From positions 1 to 43,711 of the forward strand of contig JAGXBK010000006.1 of assembly GCA_018971195.1 (NCBI GenBank): a DNA stretch of 43,711 bases, read 5' to 3'. Both the position numbers and the translations under genes were made by a program. Of this stretch, positions 11,279-32,589 are shown piece after piece. Position 1 is the stretch's first letter; each line of letters opens with the position of its first letter. The notes beneath the pieces were generated by a model. That model was given only the letters and a program-made list of their open reading frames with translations. It did no database searches and was not told the origin of the DNA. The DNA is from Betaproteobacteria bacterium (GTDB lineage: Bacteria > Pseudomonadota > Gammaproteobacteria > Burkholderiales > Casimicrobiaceae).

Positions 11279-11881
11279 ATGACCAATTCGGAAGATCCGG
11301 AAGCCTGGAAGAGCGACCTGCGCAAGCGTTTGCACGCGGAGCGCAATGCGCTTGCGCTGGAAGAACGCGAGCGCCTCAGCGAAGCCATCGTCGGTTCCAT
11401 CCTGGCGCTGGACGAGTACCGGAAGGCGCGGACTGTCCTGGGCTACATGACCTTCGGCAGCGAGCTCATGACCGGAGCCTTCGCGGACGACGCCTTGAAG
11501 GCCGGCAAGATCCTCGTGCTGCCGTTCATGCGGCGCGCGGAGAACCGGCTCGGGCTCTACCGTGTCCGCGACCTGGGCGCGGACCTCGCGCCGGGGCCCT
11601 GGGGCATCCGGCAACCCCGGCCCGACACCTGCGAGCCGGTCGAGCTGTCCGCGGTCGACTTCGTTCTCGTTCCCGGGCTCGGGTTCAGCGCCCAGGGTGA
11701 CCGGCTGGGGTACGGGCGGGGCTACTACGATCGACTGCTTGCAGGTCGCCGTCCGGGTACGGCGCTGGTCGCCGGCGCATTCCATCTGCAGCTGGTTGAT
11801 CGGATTCCCGTCGAGGCGCACGATGTGCGCATCGACACGGTGGTGAGCGAGCGGTCGACGTTCCTGCGTGACGGGCGTTGA
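11279..11881 (+). CDS. 5-formyltetrahydrofolate cyclo-ligase (methenyl-THF synthetase), copy 1
   Basis: 200 aa from the ATG at 11279, the usual family length. The N-terminal KSDLRKRLHAERNAL region and the signature GYGRGYYDRLLAG (ATP/folate site) are clear, as is VDFVLVPGLGFSAQGDRLGYG. It converts 5-formyl-THF plus ATP to 5,10-methenyl-THF in the cytoplasm, returning the inhibitory 5-formyl form to the C1 pool. The position directly before the CNB protein and Fhs places it in the C1 oxidation block. A second, divergent copy is at 36367-37020. Confidence 0.9.
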   Translation: MTNSEDPEAWKSDLRKRLHAERNALALEERERLSEAIVGSILALDEYRKARTVLGYMTFGSELMTGAFADDALKAGKILVLPFMRRAENRLGLYRVRDLGADLAPGPWGIRQPRPDTCEPVELSAVDFVLVPGLGFSAQGDRLGYGRGYYDRLLAGRRPGTALVAGAFHLQLVDRIPVEAHDVRIDTVVSERSTFLRDGR

Positions 11882-11966
11882 TGCCCGCGCGGCCATCGAG
11901 GCAGGCGCGGCCGCCGTCGCGCGCGGGGCGCTCCCTGGCACGCATCCAACCGAAAAGGCCATCGAC

Positions 11967-12512
11967 GTGAGCACGATCCCACCCGCCACCGAAATGCTCC
12001 GGCTCTCGGTCCCGTTCGCCGCGTTGCCCGATGCGCTGCTGGACAGGATCTCGGCCCTCGGCCGGCGCGCCCACTACTGCGACCGGGAGATCATCTACGA
12101 CGCGGGTTCGGCCGCCGAGCACATCTATGTCGTGCTGGCGGGGAAGGTCGAGCATTCATTCGATCCCGGGCGTGCCGTGGCCAAGGATCTGGTGAAGATC
12201 GTTGGGCCGGCCGCGGTCTTCGGCTGGGGCGCGCTGCTGAAGGCGCCGTCGGGCAACGAGCCGCCGATCCGGCTCGCGAAAACCACCAGCCTCGGCGAGT
12301 CCGATGTCCTGATCATCGATGCCGGGCAGCTGATGCAGGCCCTCGCCGCGGAGCCCGGCGCGAAGGAGGCGGTTCTGAGCCGCTTCGCGACCATGGTGCG
12401 CCATCTCTACGGCTTCGCCGGTTTCGTGAAGGTTCGTGACCAGTTCGTGCCCGCGCACATTCCCGCGACGGACACCGGGACTTCGCACGATTACGATACG
12501 TTCGCGTTCTAG
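11967..12512 (+). CDS. Stand-alone cyclic-nucleotide-binding-fold (CNB) protein, no HTH
   Basis: About 181 aa from the GTG at 11967, preceded by AAAAGG; the frame is also open from a GTG at 11868 that overlaps the cyclo-ligase. Residues about 12-140 form a CRP-type beta-barrel (YCDREIIYDAGSAAEHIYVVLAGKVEH; FGWGALL at 85-91; then LAKTTSLGESDVLIIDAGQLMQAL). The phosphate-binding cassette has FGW where cAMP-binding CRP has FGE, so ordinary cAMP recognition is doubtful. The segment LSRFATMVRHLYG closely matches MSRFATMITREFG in the CNB-permease fusion at 19591, pointing to common origin. No DNA-binding domain follows; the tail is polar. Likely a regulatory sensor subunit, partner unknown. Confidence 0.8.
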   Translation: MSTIPPATEMLRLSVPFAALPDALLDRISALGRRAHYCDREIIYDAGSAAEHIYVVLAGKVEHSFDPGRAVAKDLVKIVGPAAVFGWGALLKAPSGNEPPIRLAKTTSLGESDVLIIDAGQLMQALAAEPGAKEAVLSRFATMVRHLYGFAGFVKVRDQFVPAHIPATDTGTSHDYDTFAF

Positions 12513-12563: not shown

Positions 12564-12759
12564 TTTTCAGTCGCCATGCCGATGACGTGTCCGCAAGATA
12601 TGTCGTACGGATACAGTGCGCAGCCGGTCGGCCCCGCGGATGTTTCGTTTCGAAAGCATTGGCGGCCGGACGATGCCCGGGCGCTGACGCCGTCCGGCGC
12701 AGCCGCCGCGCGAACTCGCGCCTGACGGAACTCGCAGCAAACCCGGAGCCTTGTACAAG

Positions 12760-14436
12760 ATGCCCACCGACATCGAGATTGCGCAGAAGGCCAAGCTGGT
12801 ACGGATTTCCAAGATCGCGAAGGAGCGGCTTGGAATCGACGATCACCATCTCGAGCCCTACGGTCATTACAAGGCGAAGGTCTCGCTCGATTTCCTCGAG
12901 TCGATCAAGGATCGACCGCGCGGCAAGCTCATCCTGGTGACGGCGATCAGCCCGACGCCGGCAGGCGAAGGCAAGACGACCACGACCGTGGGCCTTGGCG
13001 ATGCGCTGAACCGGATCGGCAAGAAGTCGATCATCTGCCTGCGCGAGCCGTCGCTCGGCCCGGTGTTCGGCATGAAAGGCGGCGCCGCTGGCGGTGGTTA
13101 CGCCCAGGTGGTCCCGATGGAGGACATCAACCTGCATTTCACGGGTGACTTCAACGCGATCCAGCTCGCCAACAACCTGCTGGCTGCCCTGATCGACAAC
13201 CACATCCATCACGGCAACGAGCTCAATTTCGACGCGCGCCGAATCACCTGGAAGCGCGTGCTCGACATGAACGACCGGGCGCTGCGCGACATCACCGTCG
13301 CACTCGGCGGACCGGGGAACGGGTTTCCGCGGCAGGACGGCTTCGACATCGTCGTGGCGTCCGAGGTGATGGCAATCTTCTGCCTCGCGAATTCGCTCGC
13401 GGACCTCAAGGAGCGTCTCGGGAACATCGTCGTCGGGTATACGCGCGAACAGAAGCCGGTCACCGCTCGCGAGCTCAATGCCCATGGGGCGATGACGGTG
13501 CTGCTGCGCGACGCCCTCAAGCCGAACCTCGTGCAGACGCTCGAGAACAACCCCGCGATCATCCACGGCGGCCCGTTCGCGAACATCGCGCACGGTTGCA
13601 ACTCCGTCATCGCGACTCGCGCGGCGTCGCACCTCGCCGACTACGTGGTGACGGAGGCGGGCTTCGGCGCCGATCTGGGCGCCGAAAAGTTCATCGACAT
13701 CAAATGCCGCAAGTCCGGCCTGCGACCGGATGCCGTCGTGATCGTCGCGACGATTCGCGCGCTCAAATACCACGGCGGCGTCGACGTCAAGAACCTGAAC
13801 GTCGAGAACCTCGAGGCTCTCGAGAAAGGCATCGCCAACCTCGAGCGGCACGTCAACAACGTACGCAACCACTACGGGCTTCCCTGCATCGTCTCGGTGA
13901 ACCATTTCACCCACGACACCGATGCCGAGATCAAGCTGCTGGCGAAGAAGATGGCGCACCACGAGGCGCCGATCATCGTCGCCAGGCACTGGGCCGAAGG
14001 GGGCAAGGGTGCCGAGGAGCTGGCACGCGCCGTCGTGTCGATGATCGACAGCACGCCATCCGACTTCAAGTTCGTGTACGAGGAAGGGCTGAGCATCTGG
14101 GACAAGGTCAAGGCCGTTGCGACCAAGATCTACGGTGCTGCCGACGTCACGGCCGACACCAAGGTTCGGGCGCAGATCAAGAAGCTCCAGGACGACGGCT
14201 ACGGGCACTATCCGATATGCGTCGCCAAGACCCAGTATTCGTTCTCGACGGATCCCGCACTTCGGGGCGCACCCAGCGGTCACGTCATCAACGTGCGCGA
14301 AGTCCGGCTGGCCGCCGGGGCGGAGTTCATCGTGCTGGTCTGCGGCGACATCATGACCATGCCCGGCCTGCCCAAGCGGCCGTCTTCGGAGCGCATCGAC
14401 ATCGATGCCCAGGGCAACGTGGTCGGACTGTTCTGA
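12760..14436 (+). CDS. fhs: Formate-tetrahydrofolate ligase (10-formyl-THF synthetase)
   Basis: 558 aa from the ATG at 12760 (GGAG about 11 nt upstream; a TTG three codons earlier is possible). The P-loop [18 protein letters not shown] (about 67-84), the FTHFS signatures [24 protein letters not shown] and [15 protein letters not shown], and full length identify it securely. It interconverts formate, ATP and THF with 10-formyl-THF. In methylotrophs it works with FolD either to assimilate formate or, reversed, to release formate and ATP from formaldehyde-derived C1-THF. Here it precedes the Rieske oxygenase operon and has its own sigma54-type promoter. Confidence 0.97.
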
Positions 14437-14711: not shown

Positions 14712-15956
14712 ATGTCCCGCAACGCCATCCAGTGGCACCAGAAGCCCGGGTTCCCGGACACGCATTACGTCGATACCGCGATCTACACCGACGAGTCCCT
14801 GTTTCGCGAAGAGCAGGCGAAAATCTTCGGCAAGTGCTGGATCATCGCCTGCCACGAGTCGGAGCTGCCCAGCGCCTTCGATTACCGCACGTTCCAGCAT
14901 CCGGCCGGGGTGCCCCTGATCATCGTCCGCGGCGAGGATATGAAGCTGCGCGCGTTCTACAACATCTGCCCGCATCGCGGAAACACGCTTCTCTATGATC
15001 CGGTCGGCAACGCGAAGCGCATCACGTGCATATTTCACGCGTGGTCGTTCGACACCAAGGGAAATTGCACCGACATCTCGCGCGGCAAGGAGGGCTATCA
15101 GGAGCGGTTCAAGTGCGAGGATGCCGGGCTGCGCGAGGTCAAGGCGTCGATCGGCTACGGCGGGTTCGTCTGGGTCAACGTCGACGACGAGTCGGGCCCG
15201 CTGCAGGAATACATCGGCGACGCGCTGGGCATGCTCGAAGAACACATGAGCATGCCGCTCGAGGTGTTCCACTATCACAAGGCGGTCGTCGACACGAACT
15301 ACAAGCTGTGGCACGACACGAACAGCGAGTTCTACCACGACTACATGCACTACTTCAATCGCATCACCGGGATGCTGCAGCCCGGGTACTTCGACCGCAA
15401 GTACACCGGCTATCCGAACGGGCACGCGTCGGTGGGATCGATGTCGGTCCGGTACGACAAGTACGAGGGCAGCAAGAATCGCAGCGTCGGCTGGCCGGGC
15501 CTGGCGCCCGGCGGGTGGATCCTGATCGACATCTTTCCCGGCATGACCTACAACCTGCGCACTTCGGTTCTGCGCATGGACACCGCGATCCCGCTCGGAC
15601 CGAACAAGGTCGTCATCGAGTTTCGCGGGCTTGGACTCAAGAGCGATACGCCGGCCGAGCGCGCCGAGCGCATCCGGGATCACAACACGATCTGGGGCCC
15701 GTTCGGCCGCAACCTGCACGAAGACCTGCTCGGCGTCCATGGCCAGGGCATCGCGATGCGCGAAGGCACCGACAGCAAGTGGGTGATCCATGGTCGCGAA
15801 GAGAACATGACCATTCATGACGAGGGTGGAATGCGTCACTTCTACGCCGAGTGGAGCCGGCGGATGGGCCGGAGGGCGAACGATCCCTTCGGCGCCAGTC
15901 CCGGCGCCAGTCCCGGCGCCAGCCCGGCGCCCGCGAAGAAGCTGGCGACGGCATGA
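14712..15956 (+). CDS. Rieske non-heme iron oxygenase, alpha subunit (methanesulfonate monooxygenase MsmA-like)
   Basis: 414 aa. The N-terminal Rieske domain has C86-P-H88 and C106-x2-H109 (17 residues between) as [2Fe-2S] ligands. The catalytic domain has a mononuclear iron motif HDTNSEFYHDYMH, with His209 and His213 separated by three residues instead of the usual four. Size fits the 48-kDa hydroxylase subunit of methanesulfonate monooxygenase, and the four-gene set alpha-beta-reductase-Rieske ferredoxin equals msmABCD in composition. Published MsmA is reported, from memory, to have a longer Rieske spacer, so identity is not certain; other small methyl compounds are possible substrates. The tail carries GASP repeats encoded by three 12-bp copies (15891-15926). 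First gene behind two sigma54-type promoters. Confidence 0.85.
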   Translation: MSRNAIQWHQKPGFPDTHYVDTAIYTDESLFREEQAKIFGKCWIIACHESELPSAFDYRTFQHPAGVPLIIVRGEDMKLRAFYNICPHRGNTLLYDPVGNAKRITCIFHAWSFDTKGNCTDISRGKEGYQERFKCEDAGLREVKASIGYGGFVWVNVDDESGPLQEYIGDALGMLEEHMSMPLEVFHYHKAVVDTNYKLWHDTNSEFYHDYMHYFNRITGMLQPGYFDRKYTGYPNGHASVGSMSVRYDKYEGSKNRSVGWPGLAPGGWILIDIFPGMTYNLRTSVLRMDTAIPLGPNKVVIEFRGLGLKSDTPAERAERIRDHNTIWGPFGRNLHEDLLGVHGQGIAMREGTDSKWVIHGREENMTIHDEGGMRHFYAEWSRRMGRRANDPFGASPGASPGASPAPAKKLATA

Positions 15957-15990
15957 CCTGCCACGCACGACGAGACCCGGGAGGATTAGC

Positions 15991-16452
15991 GTGATCCCAA
16001 AGCAATCGATCGACGAGCTCATCTACCGATCCTGCATGCGCCTGGATGCGAAGGACTTTTCCGGATTTCTCGCGTTGTGCGATCCCGGATTCCGCTACCG
16101 CGTCACGGCGTTCAGCCCGGAGATCCGGAAGGAGATGATCTGGCTCGAGCACGACAAGGCCGGCCTCAAGCTGCTGTTCGACAATCTGCCGAGGCACAAC
16201 AGCGATCATTCCCCGATCACGCGGCATGTGACGGTCTACACGGTGGAGCGTGACGGCGATGATGGTAACGCGCGGGTCGTGAGCGGCTTGCAGGTGTACA
16301 GGACGACCCTGGATGGCGGCGAGACCACGCTGTACGCGGTGGGCAAGCTCCACGACATCGTGAAGGTCGACGGTGCCACGCCGTTGCTGGTCGACCGCAG
16401 CGTGCGGCTCGACACGCGGATGCTCGGAATCGGCTACCACATCCCCTTCTAG
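15991..16452 (+). CDS. Rieske oxygenase beta (small) subunit, NTF2-like fold
   Basis: 153 aa from the GTG at 15991, with GGAGG 6 nt upstream; the open frame to the left overlaps the alpha gene and is not coding. It is a cone-shaped SnoaL/NTF2-like subunit: IDELIYRSCMRLDAKDFSGFLALCDPGFRYRVTAFSPEIRKEMIWLEHD, and a C-terminal sheet ending LVDRSVRLDTRMLGIGYHIPF. Beta subunits are structural parts of alpha3beta3 oxygenases. The set alpha plus a short beta resembles MsmAB more than one-component demethylases such as vanillate or betaine monooxygenase, which lack beta. Confidence 0.85.
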   Translation: MIPKQSIDELIYRSCMRLDAKDFSGFLALCDPGFRYRVTAFSPEIRKEMIWLEHDKAGLKLLFDNLPRHNSDHSPITRHVTVYTVERDGDDGNARVVSGLQVYRTTLDGGETTLYAVGKLHDIVKVDGATPLLVDRSVRLDTRMLGIGYHIPF

Positions 16453-16476: not shown

Positions 16477-17514
16477 ATGAAGATCCACCTCAATGCCCGC
16501 AACCGTGCCCATCGCTTCGAAGCGGATGCAGACGAGAAGCTGCTCTACGCCGCGCTGAGCGATGCGGTCGATCTTCCCTACGAGTGCGGCAGCGGCACCT
16601 GCGGCACCTGCAGGGCGAGAATCCTCGAGGGCGAGATCGACGACGGCTGGCCGGATGCACCCGGACGCAAGTTCCTCAAGGGCCCCGACGAGATTCTCCT
16701 CTGCCAGTGCACTGCCAGGACCGATCTCGTCATCGAGGTCTCGAGCTTCGTGCATACGATGGAGGCGGGCGCGTCGACGCCGCAGCACTTCAAGGGGCGC
16801 GTCAGCGCGATGCGCAGGCTGACCCACGACGTGGTCTCGCTCGACGTGCAGCTTGACGGCTCGATGGACTACGACGCCGGGCAGTTCGTCATGGTGCGTG
16901 CCGCGGGCGTTCCCGGATACCGCGGCTGGTCGATGGTCAACTACGAGCGCAGCGCCCGGAAGCTCCAGTTCGTGGTCAAGAACAAGGCCGGCGGTGGCCT
17001 CTCCACATGGCTGTTCGAGCGGGCCGCCGAAGGCGCCGAGCTCGACATCTTCGGCCCCCTGGGCCGCGCGACATTCTTCCCCGCGCTCGCGAAGAACATC
17101 CTGTGCATCGCGGGTGGGAGCGGGATCGCCGGCATGATGGCGATCATCGCCCGCGCGGCACACGACGCGTATTTCACTCAGTATCGCGGCGACGTGTTCT
17201 TCGGAGTGAGGACGATGAAGGATGCGTTCTTCCTCGGCGAGCTCGCGGATTTCGTCGAGCGCTGCGGCGAGAAGTTTTCGGTTACGATTGCGCTGTCCGA
17301 CGAACCCGTCCCCCAGGCGGCAGCGCGTGATCATCCAAGACTCCATTTCGCCCACGGCCTGGTTCACGAGATCGCCGGAGCGCGCATGAGCGGGCGTTAC
17401 CAGAACGTGCGCGCTTACCTGGCCGGTCCGCCGCCGGCCGTCGATGCATCGATCAGGACGCTGCTGCAGGCGAGGCTGTCGACCGACAACATTCGCTACG
17501 ACAAGTTCAGCTAG
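16477..17514 (+). CDS. Oxygenase reductase: plant-type ferredoxin + FAD + NAD domains (MsmD-like)
   Basis: 345 aa. The N-terminal plant-type [2Fe-2S] domain has C37-x4-C42-x2-C45 and a further Cys at 76 or 78 (ECGSGTCGTCRARI...EILLCQC). An FAD-binding beta-barrel follows (RGWSMVNYERSARKLQFVVK) and then an NAD-binding domain (NILCIAGGSGIAGMMAIIARA; YLAGPPPAVDASI). It takes electrons from NAD(P)H and passes them to the Rieske ferredoxin and the oxygenase. The order of domains and size correspond to the ~38-kDa reductase component of methanesulfonate monooxygenase and to xylene/benzoate-type reductases. The stop is 1 nt before the next start. Confidence 0.93.
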   Translation: MKIHLNARNRAHRFEADADEKLLYAALSDAVDLPYECGSGTCGTCRARILEGEIDDGWPDAPGRKFLKGPDEILLCQCTARTDLVIEVSSFVHTMEAGASTPQHFKGRVSAMRRLTHDVVSLDVQLDGSMDYDAGQFVMVRAAGVPGYRGWSMVNYERSARKLQFVVKNKAGGGLSTWLFERAAEGAELDIFGPLGRATFFPALAKNILCIAGGSGIAGMMAIIARAAHDAYFTQYRGDVFFGVRTMKDAFFLGELADFVERCGEKFSVTIALSDEPVPQAAARDHPRLHFAHGLVHEIAGARMSGRYQNVRAYLAGPPPAVDASIRTLLQARLSTDNIRYDKFS

Positions 17515-17515
17515 C

Positions 17516-18241
17516 ATGGGCCGCGTCCTCGTCTGCAAGACCGCCGACATTCCGGAGAACGGGATGAAAGCCTACGAGCTCGGCGGCCGCAGGGTGCTTA
17601 TCGCCCAGGCCGGCGACTGCTACTACGCCTACCAGGGAATCTGCCCGCACCAGGAGGTCTGCCTGGATGAAGGCATCTACGACGGCTCCGTGCTGACGTG
17701 CCACCAGCATCTGTGGCAATGGGACATCACCACCGGCGAGCCGATGGGGCTGGCGGAGGCGCCGCTCGAGCGTTACCAGCTCGAAGTTGCCGACGGCGAG
17801 ATTTTCGTCGTGCACACGACAGCGTTGCAGGCTGCCGAGATCTTCACGACCGCCTCCGAGGAGACGCTCGCCAGGCTGAACGCGATTGCGCGCCGGGAGG
17901 AACACGAGGCCGGCAGCGCCCTCTACGACATCGGGGATCCGGCCGACGACCTTTACATACTCGAGTCGGGACGCGTGGAATTCCTGATCGGCCGCGAGGA
18001 GCGCACGACATCCGCGGGCTTCATGCTTCGGCGCGGCGAGGTGTTCGGATGGAACGCCATGCTCGAGCATCAGCCGAGCCGCATCGCCCGGGCGTCCTGC
18101 CTGGAGAAATCGGTCGTCCTGCGCATGAGCGGAAAGGAGACTCTCAAGGTCCTGGAGGCCGATCCTGCCTCCGGCTTCAATGTGATGCGCAAGCTTTCCA
18201 GTCTCGTCACCAGGTACCTGACCCTTTCCGGAGCGAAATGA
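17516..18241 (+). CDS. Fusion protein: Rieske ferredoxin + cyclic-nucleotide-binding-fold domain
   Basis: 241 aa. Residues 1-103 form a complete Rieske ferredoxin with C43-P-H45 and C62-H-Q-H65 (16 residues between), as in MsmC and other oxygenase ferredoxins of 100-115 aa. From about residue 105 a CNB (CRP effector-type) domain continues in the same frame: HEAGSALYDIGDPADDLYILESGRVEF, then GEVFGWNAMLEHQPSRIARASCLEKSVVL (FGW at 177-179). There is no DNA-binding domain. A ligand- or redox-sensing module attached to the electron carrier would let the oxygenase be gated at the protein level; this is inference. I know of no described Rieske ferredoxin of this build. Confidence 0.92.
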   Translation: MGRVLVCKTADIPENGMKAYELGGRRVLIAQAGDCYYAYQGICPHQEVCLDEGIYDGSVLTCHQHLWQWDITTGEPMGLAEAPLERYQLEVADGEIFVVHTTALQAAEIFTTASEETLARLNAIARREEHEAGSALYDIGDPADDLYILESGRVEFLIGREERTTSAGFMLRRGEVFGWNAMLEHQPSRIARASCLEKSVVLRMSGKETLKVLEADPASGFNVMRKLSSLVTRYLTLSGAK

Positions 18242-18387
18242 ACGCTGCTTTCGTTACCTGATCGCCACGGGCGATCGCTGTGCGCACCAAGTTGCATCGT
18301 GTGTGAGACCCGCGCGGCTTCAGAGCAATTACAACATCGGGTTCGCGTGGATCGATGAGTTCAACCAGCCCCACTAGGAGGATCGCC

Positions 18388-19521
18388 TTGGAATCCCGCC
18401 TGCTTCGCCGTGCCGGAATGGCACTTACCGTCCTCAGCAGCATTTTCGCGGCATCGATTGCCAGCCCGGCGTTCGCCGCCGACATCGACTACGGGAAGCC
18501 TGGAACGCCGGTGCATCTCGTCGTCGGCTACCAACCGTATTACACTCAGTCGTGGTCCGGGGTCGTGATGCGTGGCAAGGAGCTGTGGAAGAAGTACCTG
18601 CCTGCAGGATCGACCGTCGAATTCCAGGTCGGTCTGCAGGGTGCGATCGTCGTCAACGCGATGCTCGCGGGCAAGGAGAGCATCGGGTACATGGGTGACA
18701 TGCCCGCGATCGTGTCGACGACGAAGGAGAGCGTTGCCGACGTCCGCCTGGTGGCGATGCTCGGGCTGGCGCACGATCAGTGCAACATCTTCCTCGTGAA
18801 GAAGGATGCGCCCCAGTTCGCCTCGCCCCAGGCGGCGCTGCAGTGGCTGAACGGCAAGCAGGTCGCCGTTCCCAAAGGGAGCTGCACCGACCGCTTCGCC
18901 CAGGCCGTGTTCAAGAAGGAGAAGATCGAGCCGGCTGCCTACCTGAACCAGAGCATCGAGGTGATCACCAGCGGCCTGCGCGCAGGCAAGCTCGACGCCG
19001 CCGTCGTCTGGGAGCCGACCGCGTCCCGGCTGGTTGCAGAAGGCCTCGCCAGGCGCGTCGCGTCCGGTGCGACCGTGGGCGAGAACGACGCTGGAATGCT
19101 GGCGATGCGCTACGACCTGATCAAGCAACGTCCCGATGTCGTCAAGGACTGGCTCAACGCAGAGCTCGACGCCCAGCTCTACATAGCGGATCCCAAGAAC
19201 GCGATGGAGGTCGCGAAGATGGCCGTCTCGCAGACGACGGGCTTCAGCGAGAAGGTGATGTGGATGTCGCTGTACGGCGAGTACCCGGCATCGCAGGGGG
19301 GCGATCCGATCCGCAATTCCTACGAGTACACGTTCACGCCGGCGTCGATGGAGCTCATCAACCGCGCCACGACCTTCCTGCATTCGATCAAGAGCATCAA
19401 CGTCGACAAGCTTCGTCCCGATGCGGTGATGCCCCAGTTCACGGAGGCGATCCTCAAGGAGCGGCACCTGACCGCACCGGTCGCCCAGGTGAAGGGGCTG
19501 CCCGAGTCCGATTTCAAATGA
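18388..19521 (+). CDS. NitT/TauT-type ABC transporter, periplasmic substrate-binding protein
   Basis: 377 aa from a TTG at 18388, chosen because AGGAGG lies 6 nt upstream; an ATG at 18355 is in frame but without such a site. A signal peptide is clear (RRAGMALTVLSSIFAASIASPAFAA). The mature protein has the pattern of nitrate/sulfonate/taurine binding proteins: VHLVVGYQPYYTQSWSG, VVNAMLAGKESIGYMGDMPAIVS, GKQVAVPKGSCTDRFAQAVF, LRAGKLDAAVVWEPTASRLV. It captures a small anionic substrate and delivers it to the following permeases. In this context a sulfonate is likely. It follows the Rieske-CNB gene after 146 nt with no obvious terminator. Confidence 0.9.
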   Translation: MESRLLRRAGMALTVLSSIFAASIASPAFAADIDYGKPGTPVHLVVGYQPYYTQSWSGVVMRGKELWKKYLPAGSTVEFQVGLQGAIVVNAMLAGKESIGYMGDMPAIVSTTKESVADVRLVAMLGLAHDQCNIFLVKKDAPQFASPQAALQWLNGKQVAVPKGSCTDRFAQAVFKKEKIEPAAYLNQSIEVITSGLRAGKLDAAVVWEPTASRLVAEGLARRVASGATVGENDAGMLAMRYDLIKQRPDVVKDWLNAELDAQLYIADPKNAMEVAKMAVSQTTGFSEKVMWMSLYGEYPASQGGDPIRNSYEYTFTPASMELINRATTFLHSIKSINVDKLRPDAVMPQFTEAILKERHLTAPVAQVKGLPESDFK

Positions 19522-19590: not shown

Positions 19591-20988
19591 ATGTTTCGCG
19601 AGCACGCCGCTAGCATGCAGTCGCGTCCGTCGAGTGAGGCCGAGCAGCTCATCGTTCGGCTCCTCAAGCGCACCATGCCCTTCCAGGTCATATCGGAAGG
19701 CATGCTGCAATCGGTCGCGGCCGTCTCGCGACCGTTCTCCTATCGTGCCGGGGAGGTGATCTACCGCGCGGGCGACAAGGCCGACGACGTGTACGTGGTC
19801 GTGTCGGGCGCGGTCGACCACCTGCTCTCGGATACGCCGACCACGGTCGAGCGCAACCGGGTGATGCACAGCGGCGATGTGTTCGGATGGGCTGCCGTGC
19901 TCGGCCAGGACAAGCGCGTGCGGCTCGCCACCGCGACCTGCGTCGAGACCGCCGAGGTCATCCGCATCAACGGCGCGGCGCTCATCGAGCGTCTCAACGA
20001 CGATCCGGCGACGGCGAAGGTCGTGATGAGCCGCTTCGCCACCATGATCACGCGGGAATTCGGTGCGCCGGCGGCAGCGGCGCAGATTGTCGCACCCAAC
20101 CGGACGGTGTCGGATGCGCCGGCCGCCGTGCCCCGGCCGCGCGGCCACGCGACGGGCCTCGCGCTGACGCTGTACCGGATATCGCGCTGGCTGCGCAGCC
20201 CCAAGCCGTTCCTGATGCTCCTCGGGTTCGCGCTCTTCCTCGGCTTCTGGTACCTGTCGGTCCAGGTGTGGAAGCTCCCGCGGTTTCGCGAGATGCCGGG
20301 GCTCACCACGGTGTTCCACGAATGGTTCAGCAAGAACCCGACCTACGGTCTGTCGTTCTACACCCCCGAGTATTACCAGGACATCTGGGTGAGCGTGCGT
20401 CGCGTCGGCATCGCGTTCTTTCTCGCGACGGCGCTCGGGGTTCCGCTCGGGCTGTTCCTCGGGTGGTCGCGCACATTCCGCGAATACGTCTTCCCGGTAT
20501 TCGAGATGCTGCGCCCGATCCCGGTGCTGGCCTGGGTCCCCCTCGCGATCCTGATGTTCTCCGGATCGGAGACGCCAGTGATCTTCCTGACCTTTCTGGC
20601 GTCGTTCTTCGCCACGGCCCTCAACACGATGCTGGGCGTCGAGTCGATCGACGAGTCCTACACGCGCGCCGCCGACTGCCTCGGCGCGAGCAAGATGCAG
20701 GTATTCCGGCACGTCATCGTGCCCGGTGCGATGCCGTACATCTTCACCGGCCTGCAGATTTCGGTAGGGGTCGCGTGGTTCTCGCTGGTCGCCGCGGAGA
20801 TGGTCTCAGGGCAATTCGGGCTCGGCTACGTCATCAACACGTCGTACACGATGGTCCGCTATCCGACGATCGGGATCGGAATGATCACTCTCGGAGCGGT
20901 CGGTTATGTCACGAGCGCGCTGGTTCGCATCGTCGGGGATTCCATGATGCAGTGGCGCGTTCGCGAGCTCGCGCTAGGGGGTCGGTGA
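19591..20988 (+). CDS. Fusion protein: CNB domain + NitT/TauT-type ABC permease
   Basis: About 465 aa from the ATG at 19591 (a GTG at 19534 is in frame; no strong ribosome-binding site for either). Residues about 20-155 are a CNB barrel (FSYRAGEVIYRAGDKADDVYVVVSGAVDH; FGW at 98-100; RLATATCVETAEVIRINGAALIERL; MSRFATMITREFG). A Pro/Ala linker leads to a complete SsuC/TauC-type permease from about 205, with six helices and the EAA loop (DCLGASKMQVFRHVIVPGAMPYI). CNB domains are known on ion channels and kinases but are not a normal part of ABC importers. Inference: an intracellular ligand gates uptake. Overlaps the next gene by 1 nt. Confidence 0.93.
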   Translation: MFREHAASMQSRPSSEAEQLIVRLLKRTMPFQVISEGMLQSVAAVSRPFSYRAGEVIYRAGDKADDVYVVVSGAVDHLLSDTPTTVERNRVMHSGDVFGWAAVLGQDKRVRLATATCVETAEVIRINGAALIERLNDDPATAKVVMSRFATMITREFGAPAAAAQIVAPNRTVSDAPAAVPRPRGHATGLALTLYRISRWLRSPKPFLMLLGFALFLGFWYLSVQVWKLPRFREMPGLTTVFHEWFSKNPTYGLSFYTPEYYQDIWVSVRRVGIAFFLATALGVPLGLFLGWSRTFREYVFPVFEMLRPIPVLAWVPLAILMFSGSETPVIFLTFLASFFATALNTMLGVESIDESYTRAADCLGASKMQVFRHVIVPGAMPYIFTGLQISVGVAWFSLVAAEMVSGQFGLGYVINTSYTMVRYPTIGIGMITLGAVGYVTSALVRIVGDSMMQWRVRELALGGR

Positions 20989-21848
20989 TGCTGGCACCAA
21001 CGCCAACCGCATCGGCGCGCGGGGCCAGGACGCAGGGCGCGATCTGCATCAAGGACGTGGTCAAGGTCTACGACCCCGACCGTGCCGCGATCATGGCGGT
21101 TGACCACTGCACGCTCGACATCGCCGCCGGCGAGATCTGCATGATTGTCGGACCGTCCGGTTGCGGCAAGACGACGCTGCTCAACGCGATCGCGGGTTTC
21201 CACAGCATCACGTCGGGCGAGATCTACCTCGATGGCGAGCTCCTGTGCGGTCCGGACAAGCCGATGGCGAATCCGGGGCCGGACCGCATCGTCGTGTTCC
21301 AGAACGGCGCCCTCTTTCCCTGGAAGACGAACCTCGAGAATGTCGCCTTCGGCGTCGTCATGCAGGGGAAGATGCGGAAGAAGGAAGCGTACGAGAAGGC
21401 CCGCGCAATGATGGCCGATGCAGGACTGAGCGGGACGGAGCACAACTATCCCGGTGAGGTGTCGTCGGGTCTCAGGCGTCGGGTCGAGATCGTCCGCGCG
21501 CTGATGAACGATCCGAAGGTCCTTCTGTTCGACGAGCCGTACCGCGCGCTCGATTCGCTGACGAAGTCGGTGATGCACGAGGCGCTGCTCGAGATCTATT
21601 ACAAGAACAACGTCACCATCTTCTTCATCACCCACGATCTCGAAGAGGCGATCTTCCTCGGGCACCGGCTGGTCATCATGACCTCGCGGCCGTGCCGTCC
21701 CAAGCAGATCCTGGACGTCGATATCCCCCACCCGCGCGACTACAGCGTCCTGACCACGCCCAGGTTCAGGGAACTGATGGACCAGACCATCGAGGCGGTG
21801 CACGAAGAGGCCCGCAAGTCCTTCGAAGCCGGCGAGAGAGAGGGCTGA
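20988..21848 (+). CDS. ABC transporter ATPase 1 with degenerate signature motif
   Basis: 286 aa, starting at the ATG that overlaps the permease stop. It has an intact Walker A (GPSGCGKTTLL), Q-loop (VVFQNGALFPWKT), Walker B with catalytic Glu (VLLFDEP) and switch histidine (FFITHDLEEA). The ABC signature, LSGG in active family members, is SSGLRRR here. The other ATPase of the operon has the opposite defect. Together they would form an asymmetric pair with one complete and one degenerate ATP site. Energises import by the two permeases of this operon. Confidence 0.93.
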   Translation: MLAPTPTASARGARTQGAICIKDVVKVYDPDRAAIMAVDHCTLDIAAGEICMIVGPSGCGKTTLLNAIAGFHSITSGEIYLDGELLCGPDKPMANPGPDRIVVFQNGALFPWKTNLENVAFGVVMQGKMRKKEAYEKARAMMADAGLSGTEHNYPGEVSSGLRRRVEIVRALMNDPKVLLFDEPYRALDSLTKSVMHEALLEIYYKNNVTIFFITHDLEEAIFLGHRLVIMTSRPCRPKQILDVDIPHPRDYSVLTTPRFRELMDQTIEAVHEEARKSFEAGEREG

Positions 21849-21852
21849 TCGA

Positions 21853-22671
21853 ATGTCCAGCTCCCGGCGGTCCTTCTTCCATCGCTCGACGCTGCGGGCA
21901 TTCGTATCGATCCTGGTCTTCGTCGCGCTGTGGGAGGTCGGAGCACGGTCCAAGCAGTGGTTCGGCATCGCGGTTCCGTGGGTCGGCAACATTCCGGCGC
22001 CGACCGCGGTGCTGCACGTGTGGATGGGGCTCGTCCGCGATCCCGGCTACTGGCAAAGCTGGTACCTGAGCCTCCTGCGCGTGCTCGCGGGCTTCCTGAC
22101 TGCGATGGTCATCGGCATCCCGCTCGGGCTGCTGATGGCAGTCAGCCGCAACTTCAACGACACGTTCTTTCCGACGTTCGAGATGCTGCGCCCGATTCCG
22201 CCGCTGGCCTGGGTTCCCGCGTCGATCATCTTCTGGCCGACGCAGGAGCTTTCGATCACCTTCGTGACGTTCCTGGGCGCGTTCTTCACCGTCGTAATCA
22301 ACGTGCTCGGCGGTGCGGAGTCGATCGACGTGCGGTACTTCCAGGCGGCGCAGGCGATGGGTGCGTCGAAGTGGGACACGTTCCGGCGCATCGTGCTGCC
22401 GGCAACGGTTCCATCGATCGTGGTTGGATCGTCCGTCGGAATGGGAATCACCTGGAACGTCGTGGTCGCTGCCGAGATGATTTCCGGCGGCGGCAGCCAG
22501 GCGGGCGGAAACGGCGGCGGGCTCGGATATTTCATCTGGAATTCATACGTCGGCGGCGCCTACGAGCAGATCGTGGTCGGGATGATCAGCATCGGCATCG
22601 CGGGCTACATCTGCAGCGAGCTGCTGCGCATGCTCGGCGGCTATCTGACGCCATGGTTGAGAACGCGCTAG
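21853..22671 (+). CDS. NitT/TauT-type ABC permease 2
   Basis: 272 aa. Six predicted helices of the BPD_transp_1 family, with the conserved EMLRPIPPLAWVPASIIFWP stretch and the EAA loop AQAMGASKWDTFRRIVLPATVPSI. Unlike permease 1 it has no CNB domain, only a short basic N-terminus (MSSSRRSFFHRSTLRAF). Presence of two different permeases and two different ATPases indicates a heterodimeric importer. It starts 4 nt after the ATPase 1 stop. Confidence 0.93.
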   Translation: MSSSRRSFFHRSTLRAFVSILVFVALWEVGARSKQWFGIAVPWVGNIPAPTAVLHVWMGLVRDPGYWQSWYLSLLRVLAGFLTAMVIGIPLGLLMAVSRNFNDTFFPTFEMLRPIPPLAWVPASIIFWPTQELSITFVTFLGAFFTVVINVLGGAESIDVRYFQAAQAMGASKWDTFRRIVLPATVPSIVVGSSVGMGITWNVVVAAEMISGGGSQAGGNGGGLGYFIWNSYVGGAYEQIVVGMISIGIAGYICSELLRMLGGYLTPWLRTR

Positions 22672-22679
22672 GAACCCCG

Positions 22680-23573
22680 ATGAGCACTGTCGTGAAAGCG
22701 GCGGGGACGCCGACTTCCGCAAAGGCCCAGGCGGGCGAGATCGTCGTCTCGAGCGTCGGGAAATCCTATGGCGAGGGCCAGTTCGTCAAGGAAGTCGTCA
22801 AGGACTGCTCGTTCACCATCGAGCGCGGCAAGCTGACGGTGATGATCGGACCTTCTGGCTGCGGCAAGAGCACGCTGATCCGGCTGCTCGCCGGCTTCGA
22901 GAAGCCGACCAGCGGCTCGATCAAGATCAATGGAAAGCCGGTCACCGGCCCGGGCAAGGATCGGCTCGTCCTGTTCCAGGAGAGCGCGCTCTTCCCGTGG
23001 ATGACGACCTACGACAACATCATGTACGGCCCTCGCGCGCGCGGCGAGGACACCAAGGAGGCGCGCTCGCTCGCCGAGATGCTCCTCGACAAGGTCGGAC
23101 TGCGCGCCTTCCGCAAGAAGTATCCGACGCAGCTTTCGGGCGGGATGCAGCGGCGCGCCGAGCTCGCGCGCGCGATGATCAACAATCCCGAGGTCATGAT
23201 CCTGGACGAGCCTTTCCGCGGCCTGGACGCGATGTCGAAGGAGCTGATGTGGGAGTATTACTCCCGCCTCTACGAGGAGTCGGGGCGCACCAACTTCTTC
23301 ATCACCACCGACATCGACGAGGCGATCTTCCTGGCGGACCGGCTGCTGATCATGACGAACGTTCCGACGCAGGTGAGAGCGGTCGTCGAGATCGACATTC
23401 CGCGGCCGCGCGACCTCGTCAGCCTGGTGGACGACGACCGGGCGAACGAGGTCAAGATGGAGGCGCTGTCGCTGCTGCACGAGGAGGCGATGAAATCGTT
23501 CGCCGGCGGGAGCAAGGCCGCGGCCGACTTCATCGAGGCGTACTCTAAGCGGTTGCGGACGAAGAAAGAATGA
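22680..23573 (+). CDS. ABC transporter ATPase 2, switch histidine replaced
   Basis: 297 aa from the ATG at 22680 (AGGAAC upstream); an ATG at 22653 inside the permease gene is also in frame. Walker A (GPSGCGKSTLI), Q-loop (LFQESALFPWMT), canonical signature LSGGMQRRAELARAM and Walker B (VMILDEPFRGLD) are intact. In the H-loop, FFITTDIDEAIF replaces the usual THD by TTD, so the switch histidine is missing. Paired with ATPase 1, this leaves one canonical and one degenerate nucleotide site. Same operon as the binding protein and both permeases. Confidence 0.93.
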   Translation: MSTVVKAAGTPTSAKAQAGEIVVSSVGKSYGEGQFVKEVVKDCSFTIERGKLTVMIGPSGCGKSTLIRLLAGFEKPTSGSIKINGKPVTGPGKDRLVLFQESALFPWMTTYDNIMYGPRARGEDTKEARSLAEMLLDKVGLRAFRKKYPTQLSGGMQRRAELARAMINNPEVMILDEPFRGLDAMSKELMWEYYSRLYEESGRTNFFITTDIDEAIFLADRLLIMTNVPTQVRAVVEIDIPRPRDLVSLVDDDRANEVKMEALSLLHEEAMKSFAGGSKAAADFIEAYSKRLRTKKE

Positions 23574-23828: not shown

Positions 23829-24722
23829 ATGACGGCAAAGATCATTGACGGCAACGAAATCGCGAAACGCGTGCGTGCCGAGTGGAAGCACCGGGTCGAC
23901 GCGCTGCAGGCACGGGGAGTCCAGCCCGGACTGGCGGTGGTCATCGTCGGCGACAATCCGGCCTCGCAGGTCTATGTCCGGCACAAGACCAAGGCCTGCG
24001 CCGACATGGGCATCCATTCCGAGAAGCACGAGTTTCCCGCGGACGCGCCGGAGCAGAAGGTGCTCGACACGATCGCGCGGCTGAACGCGAACCCGGCGAT
24101 CCACGGGATTCTCGTGCAGCTGCCGCTGCCCGCGCACTTCGAGAGCCGGCGGCTGCTCGAGGCCATTGCCGTCGAGAAGGACGTCGATGGCTTCAACCTC
24201 TACAACGTGGGTGCGCTGGTCGCTGGGGATACGGTGTTCCCGCCGTGCACCCCGTTCGGCGTCCAGTGCATGCTCGAGTACAGCAACATCCCGATCTCGG
24301 GTCAGAATGTCGTGGTCGTCGGGGCCAGCAACATCGTCGGGAAGCCGATGGCGATGATGCTGATGAAGAAGGACGCGACGGTCTGCATCACGCACATCAA
24401 GACTCGCGATCTCGCCCAGTTCACCATTCTCGCCGATATCCTGGTGGTTGCCGTCGGCAAGCCGAACGTGATCACCGCGCCGATGGTGAAGACCGGCGCC
24501 GTCGTCATCGACGTCGGGATCAATCGCTTGCCGGACGGGCGTCTCGTCGGCGACGTCGACTTCGAAGCCGTGCGCGAAAAGGCCTCCTACATCACGCCGG
24601 TGCCGGGCGGTGTCGGTCCGATGACCGTCACCATGCTGCTGGTGAACACCATACAGTCGGCGGAGCGGTTCGCGGCCATCCAGATGCCGGCCGCGAGCAA
24701 GGTGGCGGCGGCCGCCGGCTAG
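23829..24722 (+). CDS. folD: Bifunctional methylene-THF dehydrogenase / methenyl-THF cyclohydrolase
   Basis: 297 aa, normal FolD length. The catalytic motif YVRHKTKAC, the substrate-site sequence GILVQLPLP, and the nucleotide-binding sequence [18 protein letters not shown] with the terminal [16 protein letters not shown] are present. It oxidises 5,10-methylene-THF with NADP+ and hydrolyses the methenyl product to 10-formyl-THF. Together with Fhs this forms a full formaldehyde-THF-to-formate route inside the cluster. Last gene of the rightward block; convergent with the GcvT-family gene. Confidence 0.97.
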
Positions 24723-24809: not shown

Positions 24810-25892
24810 CTATGCCTGGAGGCCGGGTGCGCTCCGGCGCACCAGTCTGCGCATCGGGTCCCTGAACGGAAGGCGGGCGAGGCGTCCCCTGCGCCCATCC
24901 CCGGTGTAGACCACGTCGGCGGGTCCGCTATCGCGCTCGACGAACGCCAGTCCGAGCGTTCGCCCGAACACGGGCGAGAACGCTTCGCTGGTGAGCCGCA
25001 CGGTTCGACGCCCTTCGTAACCCGCGGGCGCGCGCATCGCGACGCGACCATCGAGCGTGACGCCGCTGATCCGCCTGGAGCTCGTCTGCGAATCGCGGAG
25101 CGCCCCGCGGCCGATGAATTCCCCGCCACCGATCCGAACCAGGTGCGACATCCCGAGCTCGGCGGGAAAGGCGGGCTGCGCGAGCTCGTGCGCGAAATGG
25201 ATGTATCCGGCCTCGATGCGCAGGGCATCCGCGGCCTGCATGCCGCATTCGAGGCGTTCGAGGCCGAAGGGCACGGTCGCGAGGCGTCTCCATACCCGCA
25301 GGACGTCCGCTGCGGCCACCAGCAGCTCGTAGCCCGGTTCCCCGGTGTAGCCGAGCCTGCCCACCCACGCCTCGCCGCCGTCGATCACGTGGCGGCGAAA
25401 CCCGAAATAGGAAAGCGAATCGACGCTTCCGGGAAGTGCCTGCGCGAGCAGCGCGGCGCTGGCGGGTCCCTGGACAGCGATCACCGCATGGCTTTGCGCC
25501 AGCGGGGCGATCGCGACGTCGAAATCCTGCGCGCATCGCCGCAGGTGCCCGAAATCGCCGCGCCGCCCCGTGAACAGCCAGTACTGATCCGGGCGATGGC
25601 ACCAGACGGTGGCGTCGATGAACACGCTGCCGTCCTCGCGGCACAGGAGGGTGTAGCACAGCCGTCCGGGCTGCAGCTGTCGCAGATCGCGCGTCTGCAG
25701 GCGCTGCAGGCACGCCAGCGCGTCGCGCCCGGTGAACGCCCACCAGCCCATGAACGAAAAATCGAACAGCCCCACCCCCCGCCGCGTCGCGAGATGCTCC
25801 CGCTGCGCGTCCGAGAAGACGAGCGGAACGCTGCTCCCGTCGGGGAGCTCCGTCAGCGCAATGCCGCGCTCCTCGAAGTGCGAGATCAGCAC
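24810..25892 (-). CDS. GcvT-family (aminomethyltransferase-like) THF-dependent protein
   Basis: 360 aa, near the length of glycine-cleavage T-protein. Clear family regions: REHLATRRGVGLFDFSFMGWWAFTGRDAL, then RLCYTLLCREDGSVFIDATVWC, SHAVIAVQGPASAALLAQAL, RLGYTGEPGYELLV and DALRIEAGYIHFAHEL. The GcvT fold binds THF and accepts C1 units from methylamine carriers or demethylates substrates (as in DmdA). The usual D-D-x-x-V near residue 100 is ID-A-T-V. No gcvP/gcvH is nearby, so a role in glycine cleavage is unlikely. It is the last gene of the leftward panB-CNB-TSUP-gcvT operon. Confidence 0.85.
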   Translation of the reverse strand: MLISHFEERGIALTELPDGSSVPLVFSDAQREHLATRRGVGLFDFSFMGWWAFTGRDALACLQRLQTRDLRQLQPGRLCYTLLCREDGSVFIDATVWCHRPDQYWLFTGRRGDFGHLRRCAQDFDVAIAPLAQSHAVIAVQGPASAALLAQALPGSVDSLSYFGFRRHVIDGGEAWVGRLGYTGEPGYELLVAAADVLRVWRRLATVPFGLERLECGMQAADALRIEAGYIHFAHELAQPAFPAELGMSHLVRIGGGEFIGRGALRDSQTSSRRISGVTLDGRVAMRAPAGYEGRRTVRLTSEAFSPVFGRTLGLAFVERDSGPADVVYTGDGRRGRLARLPFRDPMRRLVRRSAPGLQA

Positions 25893-25904: not shown

Positions 25905-26639
25905 TCATGCCCCGCGGATCAGGACGAACGTACCCGCGACGATGCAAAGCCACGCAGCGGCGCGGCGCAGGTGGGCCACGTTCGTCCGATGGGCGACTGC
26001 GACGCCGATCGCGACGCCGATCAGCTCGAAGGGAATGATCAACAGCGCGACCTCGTAGTTGAACGTTCCATACGCCAGATTCGCAAGCGTCCCCGAGCCG
26101 GCGGAGATGAGCTGCAGGATCTGGCTCACGCCGATCGTCATCAGCGGAGGGAAGCCGAGGGCCAGCATGATGGGGACGGAGAACAGCGGACCTCCGGCCC
26201 CGGTCAGGCCGGACCCGAATCCCGCCGCGGCCCCGACCAGCGCGAGCAACGGCGTGCGCCGGGTTGCCTGCGCCCGGCGGGAGAGCCCCCGCACCGGGAC
26301 CAGCACGTTGACTCCCGCGAGCACGATGACGGTGCCGATGATCCTGTCGAGCAGCGCCGCGTCGGTCAGCGAGTTGACGAACGCGCCGACGTAGCTGAAG
26401 GCCAGCGCGCTGACGCAGACCGGAACGCTCGCGCGCCAGTCGATGCTGCCGCGACGCGCAAACAGCCAGGCGCTGAGCGCGCCGGTGAACAGGAAGGTGA
26501 AGAGCGCAGTCGCACTCGCGGTGTGGATCGGGATCCGACCCAGCACGACCAGTCCTGGAATCAGGAGGATCCCGCCGATTCCGACGGCGCCGATCAGGGC
26601 GCCCACCACGAGCGAAACCGCGGCCAGTGCGATCGTCAT
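25905..26639 (-). CDS. TSUP family permease (sulfite exporter TauE/SafE type)
   Basis: 244 aa integral membrane protein with about eight helices in two repeats. Family features are the N-terminal LVVGALIGAVGIGGILLIPGLV and the internal copy ALVGAAAGFGSGLTGAGGPLFSVPIMLALGFPPLMTIGVSQ. TauE/SafE proteins export sulfite or organosulfur anions formed during sulfonate degradation. With the oxygenase, sulfonate-type ABC importer and SoeABC, export of sulfite is the best guess, but members of the family have other substrates. It sits 12 nt upstream of the GcvT-family gene. Confidence 0.88.
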   Translation of the reverse strand: MTIALAAVSLVVGALIGAVGIGGILLIPGLVVLGRIPIHTASATALFTFLFTGALSAWLFARRGSIDWRASVPVCVSALAFSYVGAFVNSLTDAALLDRIIGTVIVLAGVNVLVPVRGLSRRAQATRRTPLLALVGAAAGFGSGLTGAGGPLFSVPIMLALGFPPLMTIGVSQILQLISAGSGTLANLAYGTFNYEVALLIIPFELIGVAIGVAVAHRTNVAHLRRAAAWLCIVAGTFVLIRGA

Positions 26640-27185: not shown

Positions 27186-28064
27186 TCAGCTCTGCCAGCC
27201 GACCATCTGCTTGAACCTGGCGAGTTCCTCCTCCTTCATGAAAACCGTGTGCTCCTTTCCCGGGTAGCGCCGGTTCTTGACGTCGTCCATGTATTCGCCG
27301 TAGCCCTTCTCGAGGATCGGAACGAGGTCGCAGTAGATCTTCGAATGGCGCGGCGTGTGCTTCTCGTAGAGATGGAAAAGGTCGGAGCCTATGATGTGGA
27401 CGCCGTCGGACGTGTTGCCGGAGCCGAGGCTGATCACCGGAACGGCGAGCGTCTCGGCGAGGTATTGGGACACCTCCGAGGTCACGACCTCGGTCATGAT
27501 CGAGAAGCAGCCCGCATCGACGAACGCCATCGCGTCGTCGATGAGCTCCTTGGCGCGATCGGCCGTCTTGCCCTGCGCCGCGAATCCACCGAGCTGCGCC
27601 ATGCGCATCGGGCAGATGCCGATGTGGCCCTGCACCGGGATGCCCGCCTTGACGATCGCCTCGATGTTCCTAGCGTGGTGAATGTTACCTTCGCACTTCA
27701 TGACCTCGGCGCCGGCTTTCGCGACGTACTGGGCAGCGTTGTCGACGGCCTGTTGCGGCGAGAGATGGAAGCTCATGTAGGGCATGTCGACCATGCGCAG
27801 CCCGTATTGCGAGCCGCGCTTGACGGCCTGGGCCATGAACATCACCTCCTCGAAGGTGACGGACGTCGTGGACTCGTGGCCGAACAGGACCATTCCGCCG
27901 GTATCGCTGACGCAGAGGATGTCGATGCCGAGACGATCGGCGACGATCGCATTCTCGTAGTCGTACACCGCGAGCTGGACGATGGGCTCCTTCTTCTTCT
28001 TCTTCTCCATCAGCATCGGGATCGTTACCTTCTTGCGCTTCGGTGCTGCGGGAGCTTCGGCCAT
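27186..28064 (-). CDS. Divergent PanB-family (ketopantoate hydroxymethyltransferase-like) enzyme
   Basis: 292 aa from the ATG at 28064, which has AGGAGG 5 nt upstream (an ATG at 28100 is also in frame). It keeps the PanB (beta/alpha)8 fold and metal ligands D54 (CVSDTGGMVLFG), D93 (MVDMPYMSF), E125 (VMKCEGN), plus E192 in ITEVV. Differences from housekeeping PanB (about 264 aa): a Lys-rich N-terminal extension, VSDTGG for VGDSLG, HIGICPM for HVGLTPQ and SGNTSDG for GAGxxxDG. PanB adds a hydroxymethyl group from 5,10-methylene-THF to a 2-oxo acid. In this C1 cluster a dedicated C1-transfer role is more likely than pantothenate synthesis. First gene behind a sigma54-type promoter. Confidence 0.85.
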   Translation of the reverse strand: MAEAPAAPKRKKVTIPMLMEKKKKKEPIVQLAVYDYENAIVADRLGIDILCVSDTGGMVLFGHESTTSVTFEEVMFMAQAVKRGSQYGLRMVDMPYMSFHLSPQQAVDNAAQYVAKAGAEVMKCEGNIHHARNIEAIVKAGIPVQGHIGICPMRMAQLGGFAAQGKTADRAKELIDDAMAFVDAGCFSIMTEVVTSEVSQYLAETLAVPVISLGSGNTSDGVHIIGSDLFHLYEKHTPRHSKIYCDLVPILEKGYGEYMDDVKNRRYPGKEHTVFMKEEELARFKQMVGWQS

Positions 28065-28117
28065 CGTTGCCTCCTGGGTTGGCGTGGACACATTGGACAA
28101 GCACGACTTTCATCCAC

Positions 28118-30941: not shown

Positions 30942-31871
30942 TCACAGCCCGTGATAGATCCGCACGACGTGTCGCGCTTCGGCGAAGAAGAACCAGCGCT
31001 CGAGGATCAGGCCGACAGTCGCGGCCGCCACGGCGAGGATCGCAACGGGAAGCGTCGCGGGCGACAGCAGCAGTGCGAGCAGCGGGATGACGAACCCGAC
31101 CAGGACTACGAGCGCCTTGCCGACGCGCGCGTGCGCGCGCGCGACGCTGAAGCAGAACTCGTCGGTCAGGAAGGTCCCGTGGCTGTGCCCCACATCGAGC
31201 AGGCGCACCCGCGCGCGGGAGATCCCGGTCGCGGTGTTGATCGTCGTGCGCGCGTTCGCGCGGGCCATCGATGCGTAGTAGACGAGCTTGACGGCGGCGG
31301 CGACCACGAGCCACCCCAGCGCCAAGTCGACGTAGGGGGACGTTGGATGGCCCGCGCAGGCCAGCACGGCGAGCAGCAGCAGGGCGCCCGAATAGTGACC
31401 GAGAGCCAGGTAGCCGATCGGCACGAGCGGCGAGTGCCACTGGGGGATCGGCTTGAGGCTCGCGTAGATCATCCCGGTGCAGTAGAGCGTGATCCAGGCC
31501 AGCACCACCGTGCACGCGGCGGCGATCGCTCTCGGTCCTTCGCCGGCGCCGAGTTCGACCAAGGCCAGGTAGCCCGCCGCCATCGGGAAGAAGGCGAGCG
31601 CAAAGACCCCCTCGCGCGAAAGCCACGAGGTCCGAAAGCGCGAAAAGGCGCGCCACGCATTCCTGGGATTGGCAAGGTGCAGCGTGGACGACAGCAGGCC
31701 GGCGGCGACGAGCACCAGCGCGATGAGCCCGCCGGCTGCGATCTCGCGATCGCTCGGGCCTCCGGCACCCCCGGCGCGCTGCAACAGGTCGGCGAGTCCG
31801 AGCAGTGCGATCAGCCCGAAGCCGGCGCCGGAACTGACGGTGAAGAAGATGACGGACAGTGCAGGCTTCAT
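30942..31871 (-). CDS. DmsC/SoeC-like membrane anchor subunit
   Basis: 309 aa with about eight hydrophobic helices, typical of DmsC-family quinone-binding anchors (SVIFFTVSSGAGFGLIALLGLADLL; STLHLANPRNAWRAFSRFRTSWLSREGVFALAFF). The segment HLANPxNAWRAFSRFRTSWLSREG is characteristic of DmsC proteins. It would pass electrons between the iron-sulfur subunit and the quinone pool. It is encoded 12 nt after the Fe-S subunit gene and ends the three-gene operon. Assignment to SoeC rests on the identity of the catalytic subunit. Confidence 0.88.
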   Translation of the reverse strand: MKPALSVIFFTVSSGAGFGLIALLGLADLLQRAGGAGGPSDREIAAGGLIALVLVAAGLLSSTLHLANPRNAWRAFSRFRTSWLSREGVFALAFFPMAAGYLALVELGAGEGPRAIAAACTVVLAWITLYCTGMIYASLKPIPQWHSPLVPIGYLALGHYSGALLLLAVLACAGHPTSPYVDLALGWLVVAAAVKLVYYASMARANARTTINTATGISRARVRLLDVGHSHGTFLTDEFCFSVARAHARVGKALVVLVGFVIPLLALLLSPATLPVAILAVAAATVGLILERWFFFAEARHVVRIYHGL

Positions 31872-31883
31872 CCAGCCGGGCCG

Positions 31884-32579: not shown

Positions 32580-32589
32580 GGGGGTCGCC

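Follow-up and report, generated by a model that had tools for sequence, protein, structure and literature searches.

A TauC/SsuC-type ABC importer permease and a cyclic-nucleotide-binding (CNB) fold are joined in one protein of a Casimicrobiaceae genome, and this fusion is real: both domains are read in one frame here and in relatives from several families. Judged by its sequence, the CNB is one of a pathway-associated subfamily that has Trp in place of the cassette Glu and keeps the Arg, and the fusion is more interesting within this pathway-wide set of altered CNBs than alone. Our reading of the whole, offered tentatively and at somewhat less than even probability, is that a sulfonate importer resembling MsmEFGH carries on its first permease a repurposed CNB that would sense a pathway signal other than a cyclic nucleotide. 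The window, by which we mean the whole stretch of DNA that was analysed, comprises 43,711 nt of Betaproteobacteria bacterium (Casimicrobiaceae; GCA_018971195.1, contig JAGXBK010000006.1, positions 1-43,711), and its features are collected in Table 1.

Table 1. Coordinates of the fused permease gene and of its neighbours in the window
Feature	Position	Strand	Basis
Free-standing CNB protein CNB1, FGW type; no DNA-binding domain by Pfam	11868..12512	+	
Formate-tetrahydrofolate ligase	12751..14436	+	
Rieske oxygenase alpha subunit, CXH-X17-CXXH	14712..15956	+	
Oxygenase beta subunit; called frame overlaps that of alpha, start uncertain	15817..16452	+	Pfam
Oxygenase reductase (2Fe-2S, FAD, NAD)	16477..17514	+	Pfam
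Rieske ferredoxin fused to FGW-type CNB; true start possibly downstream of 17444	17444..18241	+	
Periplasmic substrate-binding protein, SsuA/TauA-like (NMT1_2)	18355..19521	+	
CNB-permease fusion (CNB ~20-160, linker 160-205, permease 206-465)	19591..20988	+	ORF, Pfam, model, hydropathy, orthologues
Altered phosphate-binding cassette F98-G99-W100 ... R111 (Trp at Glu position of canonical FGE; Arg retained)	19885..19923	+	profile and multiple alignments
ABC ATPase 1, signature VSSGL (not LSGGQ-like), switch His present	20988..21848	+	
Second permease, no CNB	21853..22671	+	
ABC ATPase 2, signature LSGGM, switch His replaced by Thr	22671..23573	+	
FolD	23829..24722	+	
GcvT-like folate-binding protein	24810..25892	-	
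TauE/SafE-family exporter	25905..26639	-	
Free-standing CNB protein CNB4, FGW type, 154 aa	26720..27184	-	
PanB-family hydroxymethyltransferase	27186..28100	-	

Two domains in one conserved frame

The fusion is encoded by a single ORF of 465 amino acids with no internal stop. Pfam recognises a CNB (PF00027) at residues 50-135, with 52.1 bits against a cut-off of 27.5 (6.5e-14), and a TauC/NrtB-type permease (PF00528) at residues 283-451, with 91.2 bits against a cut-off of 26.4 (9e-26). An AlphaFold2 model built on a 6-row alignment has a CNB-like fold over residues ~15-165, with ten-residue blocks mostly at pLDDT 70-90; residues 81-87 and 106-111, the latter within the binding cassette, fall below 50, so that the cassette is poorly modelled, and most of the permease portion is likewise below 50. 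VIA-align placed the modelled CNB on PKA-R, 3mdp and MloK1 with Z of 16-18 over residues ~6-165, and the nearest solved structures by both sequence and fold are cyclic-nucleotide-binding domains. The best solved matches of the permease by sequence are CmpB (9u9z, 1.3e-33) and NrtB (8w9m, 5.2e-33), while the named permease equivalogs of NCBIfam scored below their cut-offs (NtrB 141/209, TauC 133/342, SsuC 99/347 and SaoP 155/295 bits). An EAA-type cytoplasmic coupling loop is present as RAA-x3-GA at residues 359-366, and with the PF00528 score it places this part among the Type I ABC importer permeases. Simple hydropathy gives five hydrophobic segments, the earliest strongly hydrophobic one at residues 206-224 with four Lys/Arg residues just N-terminal of it. 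The CNB precedes this segment and presumably lies on the cytoplasmic side. The coordinates in the earlier note are correct; where translation begins is uncertain: no clear ribosome-binding site precedes the ATG at 19591, another ATG occurs at 19615, and the alignments of relatives begin only at residue ~12-23.

The earlier note had described one uninterrupted frame holding a CRP-type barrel, placed before the first membrane helix, together with a TauC/SsuC-type permease, and this is borne out by the Pfam, AlphaFold2, VIA-align, orthologue and hydropathy results. It had also named two ways in which the claim could fail, a sequencing error and a common architecture. The genome carrying the window is a fragmented draft of 288 contigs, which speaks for a sequencing or assembly error having fused two genes. 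Against this, the CNB and the permease share a single frame in 11 further genomes, drawn from several families (G016 at 94% identity; G008 at 64%; G192, G153, G110, G320, G401, G143, G290 and G108 at 65-71%; G505 at 61%), and no stop or frameshift separates the domains in relatives having both. These orthologues rule out the artefact, whose probability is negligible. In G089 the CNB and the first part of the permease lie in one 345-aa frame ended by the contig edge, bringing the total to 13 genomes with the window's own.

Nor is the architecture common within the phylum. Rarity was assessed in genus, order, class and phylum draws and in a plasmid collection; counting the window's own genome each time, the fusion was found in 3/22 genus genomes, 10/399 genomes of the order-level draw, 2/369 of the class draw (G505 being new there) and 2/398 of the phylum draw, where only the already found G320 occurs besides. 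In the plasmid collection 1430 records match the query, and none spans 80% of it. A scan of genome contigs returned one locus, L046, apparently the G016 contig. The earlier note, treating a single case, was too narrow: the fusion is kept in the 13 genomes found, and a Rieske-CNB ferredoxin and the binding protein adjoin the fused permease in 13/13 fused loci (window and partial G089 included).

The importer itself can do without the CNB, since the permeases of G042, G663 and G852 lack it. That of G042 is 77% identical to the fused permease, and the DNA upstream of it codes for no CNB; the other two genomes carry long-spacer oxygenase loci (see below). In the permease phylogeny the bare G042 permease falls among fused rows (88/87) and the fused G505 permease groups with the bare G663 and G852 permeases (87/82), both below the strong-support mark, and this tree does not settle gain versus loss of the CNB. 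The cluster of G031 is split over contigs (ferredoxin CNB, binding protein, two CNB1 and CNB4); its fused permease, if any, would lie beyond a contig end, and its bare permease accompanies a 38% binding protein. Related five-gene importers without a CNB, with permeases ~49-55% identical, also occur at L054, L026, L061 and L085, where no oxygenase is nearby on the fetched stretches.

Gene neighbourhood and probable substrate

Upstream of the fusion lie the genes for the oxygenase alpha and beta subunits and reductase, the CNB-fused Rieske ferredoxin and the binding protein, and downstream those for an ATPase, the second permease, the second ATPase and FolD. Farther out in the window are 5-formyl-THF cyclo-ligase, formate-THF ligase and CNB1. 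The opposite strand encodes the GcvT-like, TauE, CNB4 and PanB proteins, a sigma-54 regulator with a kinase, and a molybdopterin oxidoreductase with a DmsC-type anchor. This last complex (oxidoreductase, Fe-S subunit and anchor at 30942-35523) matched no NCBIfam model over cut-off; we presume that it could be sulfite-oxidising and SoeABC-like. The window also holds an AbiEi/AbiEii toxin-antitoxin pair (3940-5405).

Among the closest described systems is MsmEFGH of Filomicrobium and Methylosulfonomonas, in which the binding protein, permease, ATPase, permease and ATPase follow the same order and a Rieske oxygenase lies nearby; the published methanesulfonate loci comprise msmEFGH, msmABCD, TauE, GcvT and PanB (PMC4433239). 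They differ in two respects: MsmF, at 13485-14372 in the published table, has ~295 codons and is therefore too short for a CNB, and the spacer of the oxygenase is 26 residues versus 17 in the window (PMC4433239). This comparison was made by the published table, with G663 and G852 (spacer 26) as sequence stand-ins.

The proven methanesulfonate oxygenases are described as having a 26-residue Rieske spacer, and the same paper lists X17 proteins from Methylibium, Methyloversatilis, a Rhodocyclaceae strain, Ralstonia and Thiobacillus, its authors remarking that no hard data link the X17 type to methanesulfonate (PMC4433239). For Methyloversatilis FAM5, the methanesulfonate genes are reported to be silent on methanol and methylamine (PMC5023235). 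The X17 spacer, rather than the MsmA motif CXH-X26-CXXH, is present in the window alpha subunit and in the fused loci where this subunit was seen, which excludes the window oxygenase from the methanesulfonate monooxygenases (MsmA) while leaving the likeness. An X26 spacer was found in L062, L063, L106, L112 and L118; the relatives bearing it are the plasmid records L062 and L063 (Paraburkholderia graminis and Methylobacterium nodulans) as well as G110, G663 and G852. Fusion and oxygenase occur together: the 10 fused genomes of the order draw are the same 10 that have the alpha subunit at >=75% identity, the permease and oxygenase draws, made on the same terms and with the same handles, being taken as the same 399 genomes. 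Weaker or broken alpha subunits occur in three further genomes of this draw (G042 68%, G111 45%, G349 45%). The alpha frame is broken in G153 and G042 (L049, L107). Taken together, the importer substrate is probably a short-chain C1 sulfonate, and only probably so because the spacer is 17 and not 26 despite matching gene content.

The two ATPases look unequal. ATPase 1 has SSG instead of SGG in its signature in 19/19 rows and retains the switch His in all 18 rows that reach that position, while ATPase 2 has a good signature and Thr or Ser in place of the switch His in 19/19 rows; the rows include importers without the CNB fusion. On these residues, one ATP site of the pair would be competent and the other weakened, an arrangement shared with heterodimeric exporters.

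An altered cassette shared along the pathway

In classical CNBs the cassette Arg binds the phosphate and the Glu contacts the ribose. Profile alignment of the fused domain to PKG sets Trp over Glu and Arg over Arg with one additional residue between, so that only the Arg of the Glu and Arg pair of cyclic-nucleotide binders is present. All four CNBs in the window (permease, Rieske ferredoxin and the two free-standing proteins) have FGW versus the classical FGE, whereas the other eight of the genome's 12 PF00027 matches have Trp in none, Glu in five and neither in three. Four of these eight (C170b, C270, C254 and C286) fell below threshold and were omitted from the CNB alignment, their cassettes being read by eye. 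Among 42 related CNBs, Trp occupies the W100 position in 40 (Phe in L059 and L115), G99 and R111 are found in every one, and five outer, less related rows have Glu. In the CNB phylogeny the 42 related rows and the five Glu rows separate at 99/99; the ferredoxin CNBs form one group (13 rows, 99/99), as do the CNB4 proteins (9 rows, 100/99), and the permease CNBs are a grade that includes CNB1 and, from G042, two free CNBs, with several long branches. In the family draw, CNBs matching at <=1e-8 occur in 5/64 genomes, namely G000, G016, G008 and G031, which have the cluster, and G010, which has one distant LGW-type CNB and no close match to the permease. The Trp cassette is thus not wholly restricted to this cluster.

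The four window CNB proteins carry no DNA-binding domain by Pfam and are therefore not CRP-like regulators; an identity as CRP/FNR transcription factors was rejected on this ground. The top NCBIfam model over the CNB part was that of the family 2B encapsulin CNB (NF041163), a shell protein, and at 32.6 bits, far under the cut-off of 400, this link was set aside. The recurrence of the altered CNB on pathway proteins suggests a shared control or docking module.

Possible roles of the fused domain

Open-licence papers, which are weak evidence of absence, yielded no described ABC importer with a CNB on its permease, in agreement with the earlier note. NrtBCD and CmpBCD, the nitrate and bicarbonate importers to which the closest solved permeases belong, have an extra regulatory domain on the ATPase subunit and not on the permease, and it is not a CNB. 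The earlier note's view that regulatory domains of importers usually sit on the ATPase fits the published examples of MetNI, ModABC and OpuA, and the same source mentions fusions of a CNB to MFS proteins, which likewise add the domain to a transporter but are secondary transporters and not ABC importers (PMC10710835). Similar in layout is HetC, an ABC transporter with an N-terminal CNB that is described as unresponsive to cAMP, binding ppGpp and needed for function; it differs in being an exporter whose peptidase and ATPase share a chain, in lacking a binding protein and in having an unrelated membrane part (PMC10986499). In trypanosome PKA, CNBs are reported to bind nucleosides, although there the Arg is lost (PMC10959531). 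HetC with ppGpp and trypanosome PKA with nucleosides show that CNBs are able to switch ligand.

We propose that, in a sulfonate importer resembling MsmEFGH, the first permease gained an N-terminal CNB that may no longer read cAMP or cGMP and would bind another pathway signal. The simplest ligand would be a small anion held by the retained Arg, that is, the sulfonate itself or sulfite released from it; a smaller anion fits because a bulky Trp replaces the Glu and the Arg is kept. The bound state could be relayed through the C-helix and linker into TM1, and import would thereby track the capacity of the oxygenase, whose ferredoxin bears the same reader. What is observed in this reading is the conserved fusion, the domain type common to permease and ferredoxin, the alteration of the cassette and the co-occurrence with the oxygenase; against it stand the bare permease of G042, the bare importers of G663 and G852, the 17-residue spacer and the LGW-type CNB of G010.

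A domain carried by both permease and ferredoxin suits either one signal shared by uptake and oxidation or docking of the two to each other. Gating of transport, suggested in the earlier note, is possible, and docking to the oxygenase system competes with it seriously, unlikely as we hold docking to be. In the docking reading, the permease CNB would pair with that of the ferredoxin, or both with the free CNBs, so that the oxygenase system is held at the importer and substrate is oxidised on entry, ligand binding being secondary or lost. One subfamily on two very different proteins of an operon and on two free proteins, the latter without a Pfam DNA-binding domain, speaks for docking, as do the two tandem CNBs ahead of the G192 permease (L047:11508-13433) and the long-spacer locus of G663, where a free CNB gene directly follows the reductase gene and both ferredoxin and permease are bare. 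No free CNB gene was seen in G852. The bare G042 permease argues the other way, as does G505, which retains a bare Rieske protein beside the fused Rieske-CNB (L084:11888-13009).

Lower probabilities attach to two simpler roles. A CNB that only aids folding or stability and reads nothing would explain its absence from the close unfused permeases of G042, G663 and G852; given that few positions in the domain are as conserved as those of the cassette, we regard such a passenger as quite improbable. The nearest solved structures and the retained Arg favour an ordinary cAMP or cGMP sensor on the importer. The replacement of the cassette Glu by Trp, in every window copy and in nearly all relatives while five other CNBs of the genome keep Glu, makes such sensing, and with it a plain cAMP sensor role, unlikely, and we assign it a low probability.

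Stated more broadly, and with a probability appreciably below even, the gating and docking proposals may meet in a CNB subfamily rebuilt for a metabolite of the C1-sulfonate pathway, with Trp closing the ribose pocket, that was copied onto importer, electron carrier and free adaptors; one signal would then set both uptake and oxygenation, or CNB pairing would hold importer and oxygenase in one complex. If true, this would place the control of an ABC importer, whether allosteric or by docking, on the permease by way of a CNB, an arrangement that we did not find described. It would offer a compact case of one domain type recruited by both the import and the catalysis of the same compound, and a lead on what the short-spacer 'MsmA' oxygenases of methylotrophic Betaproteobacteria do.
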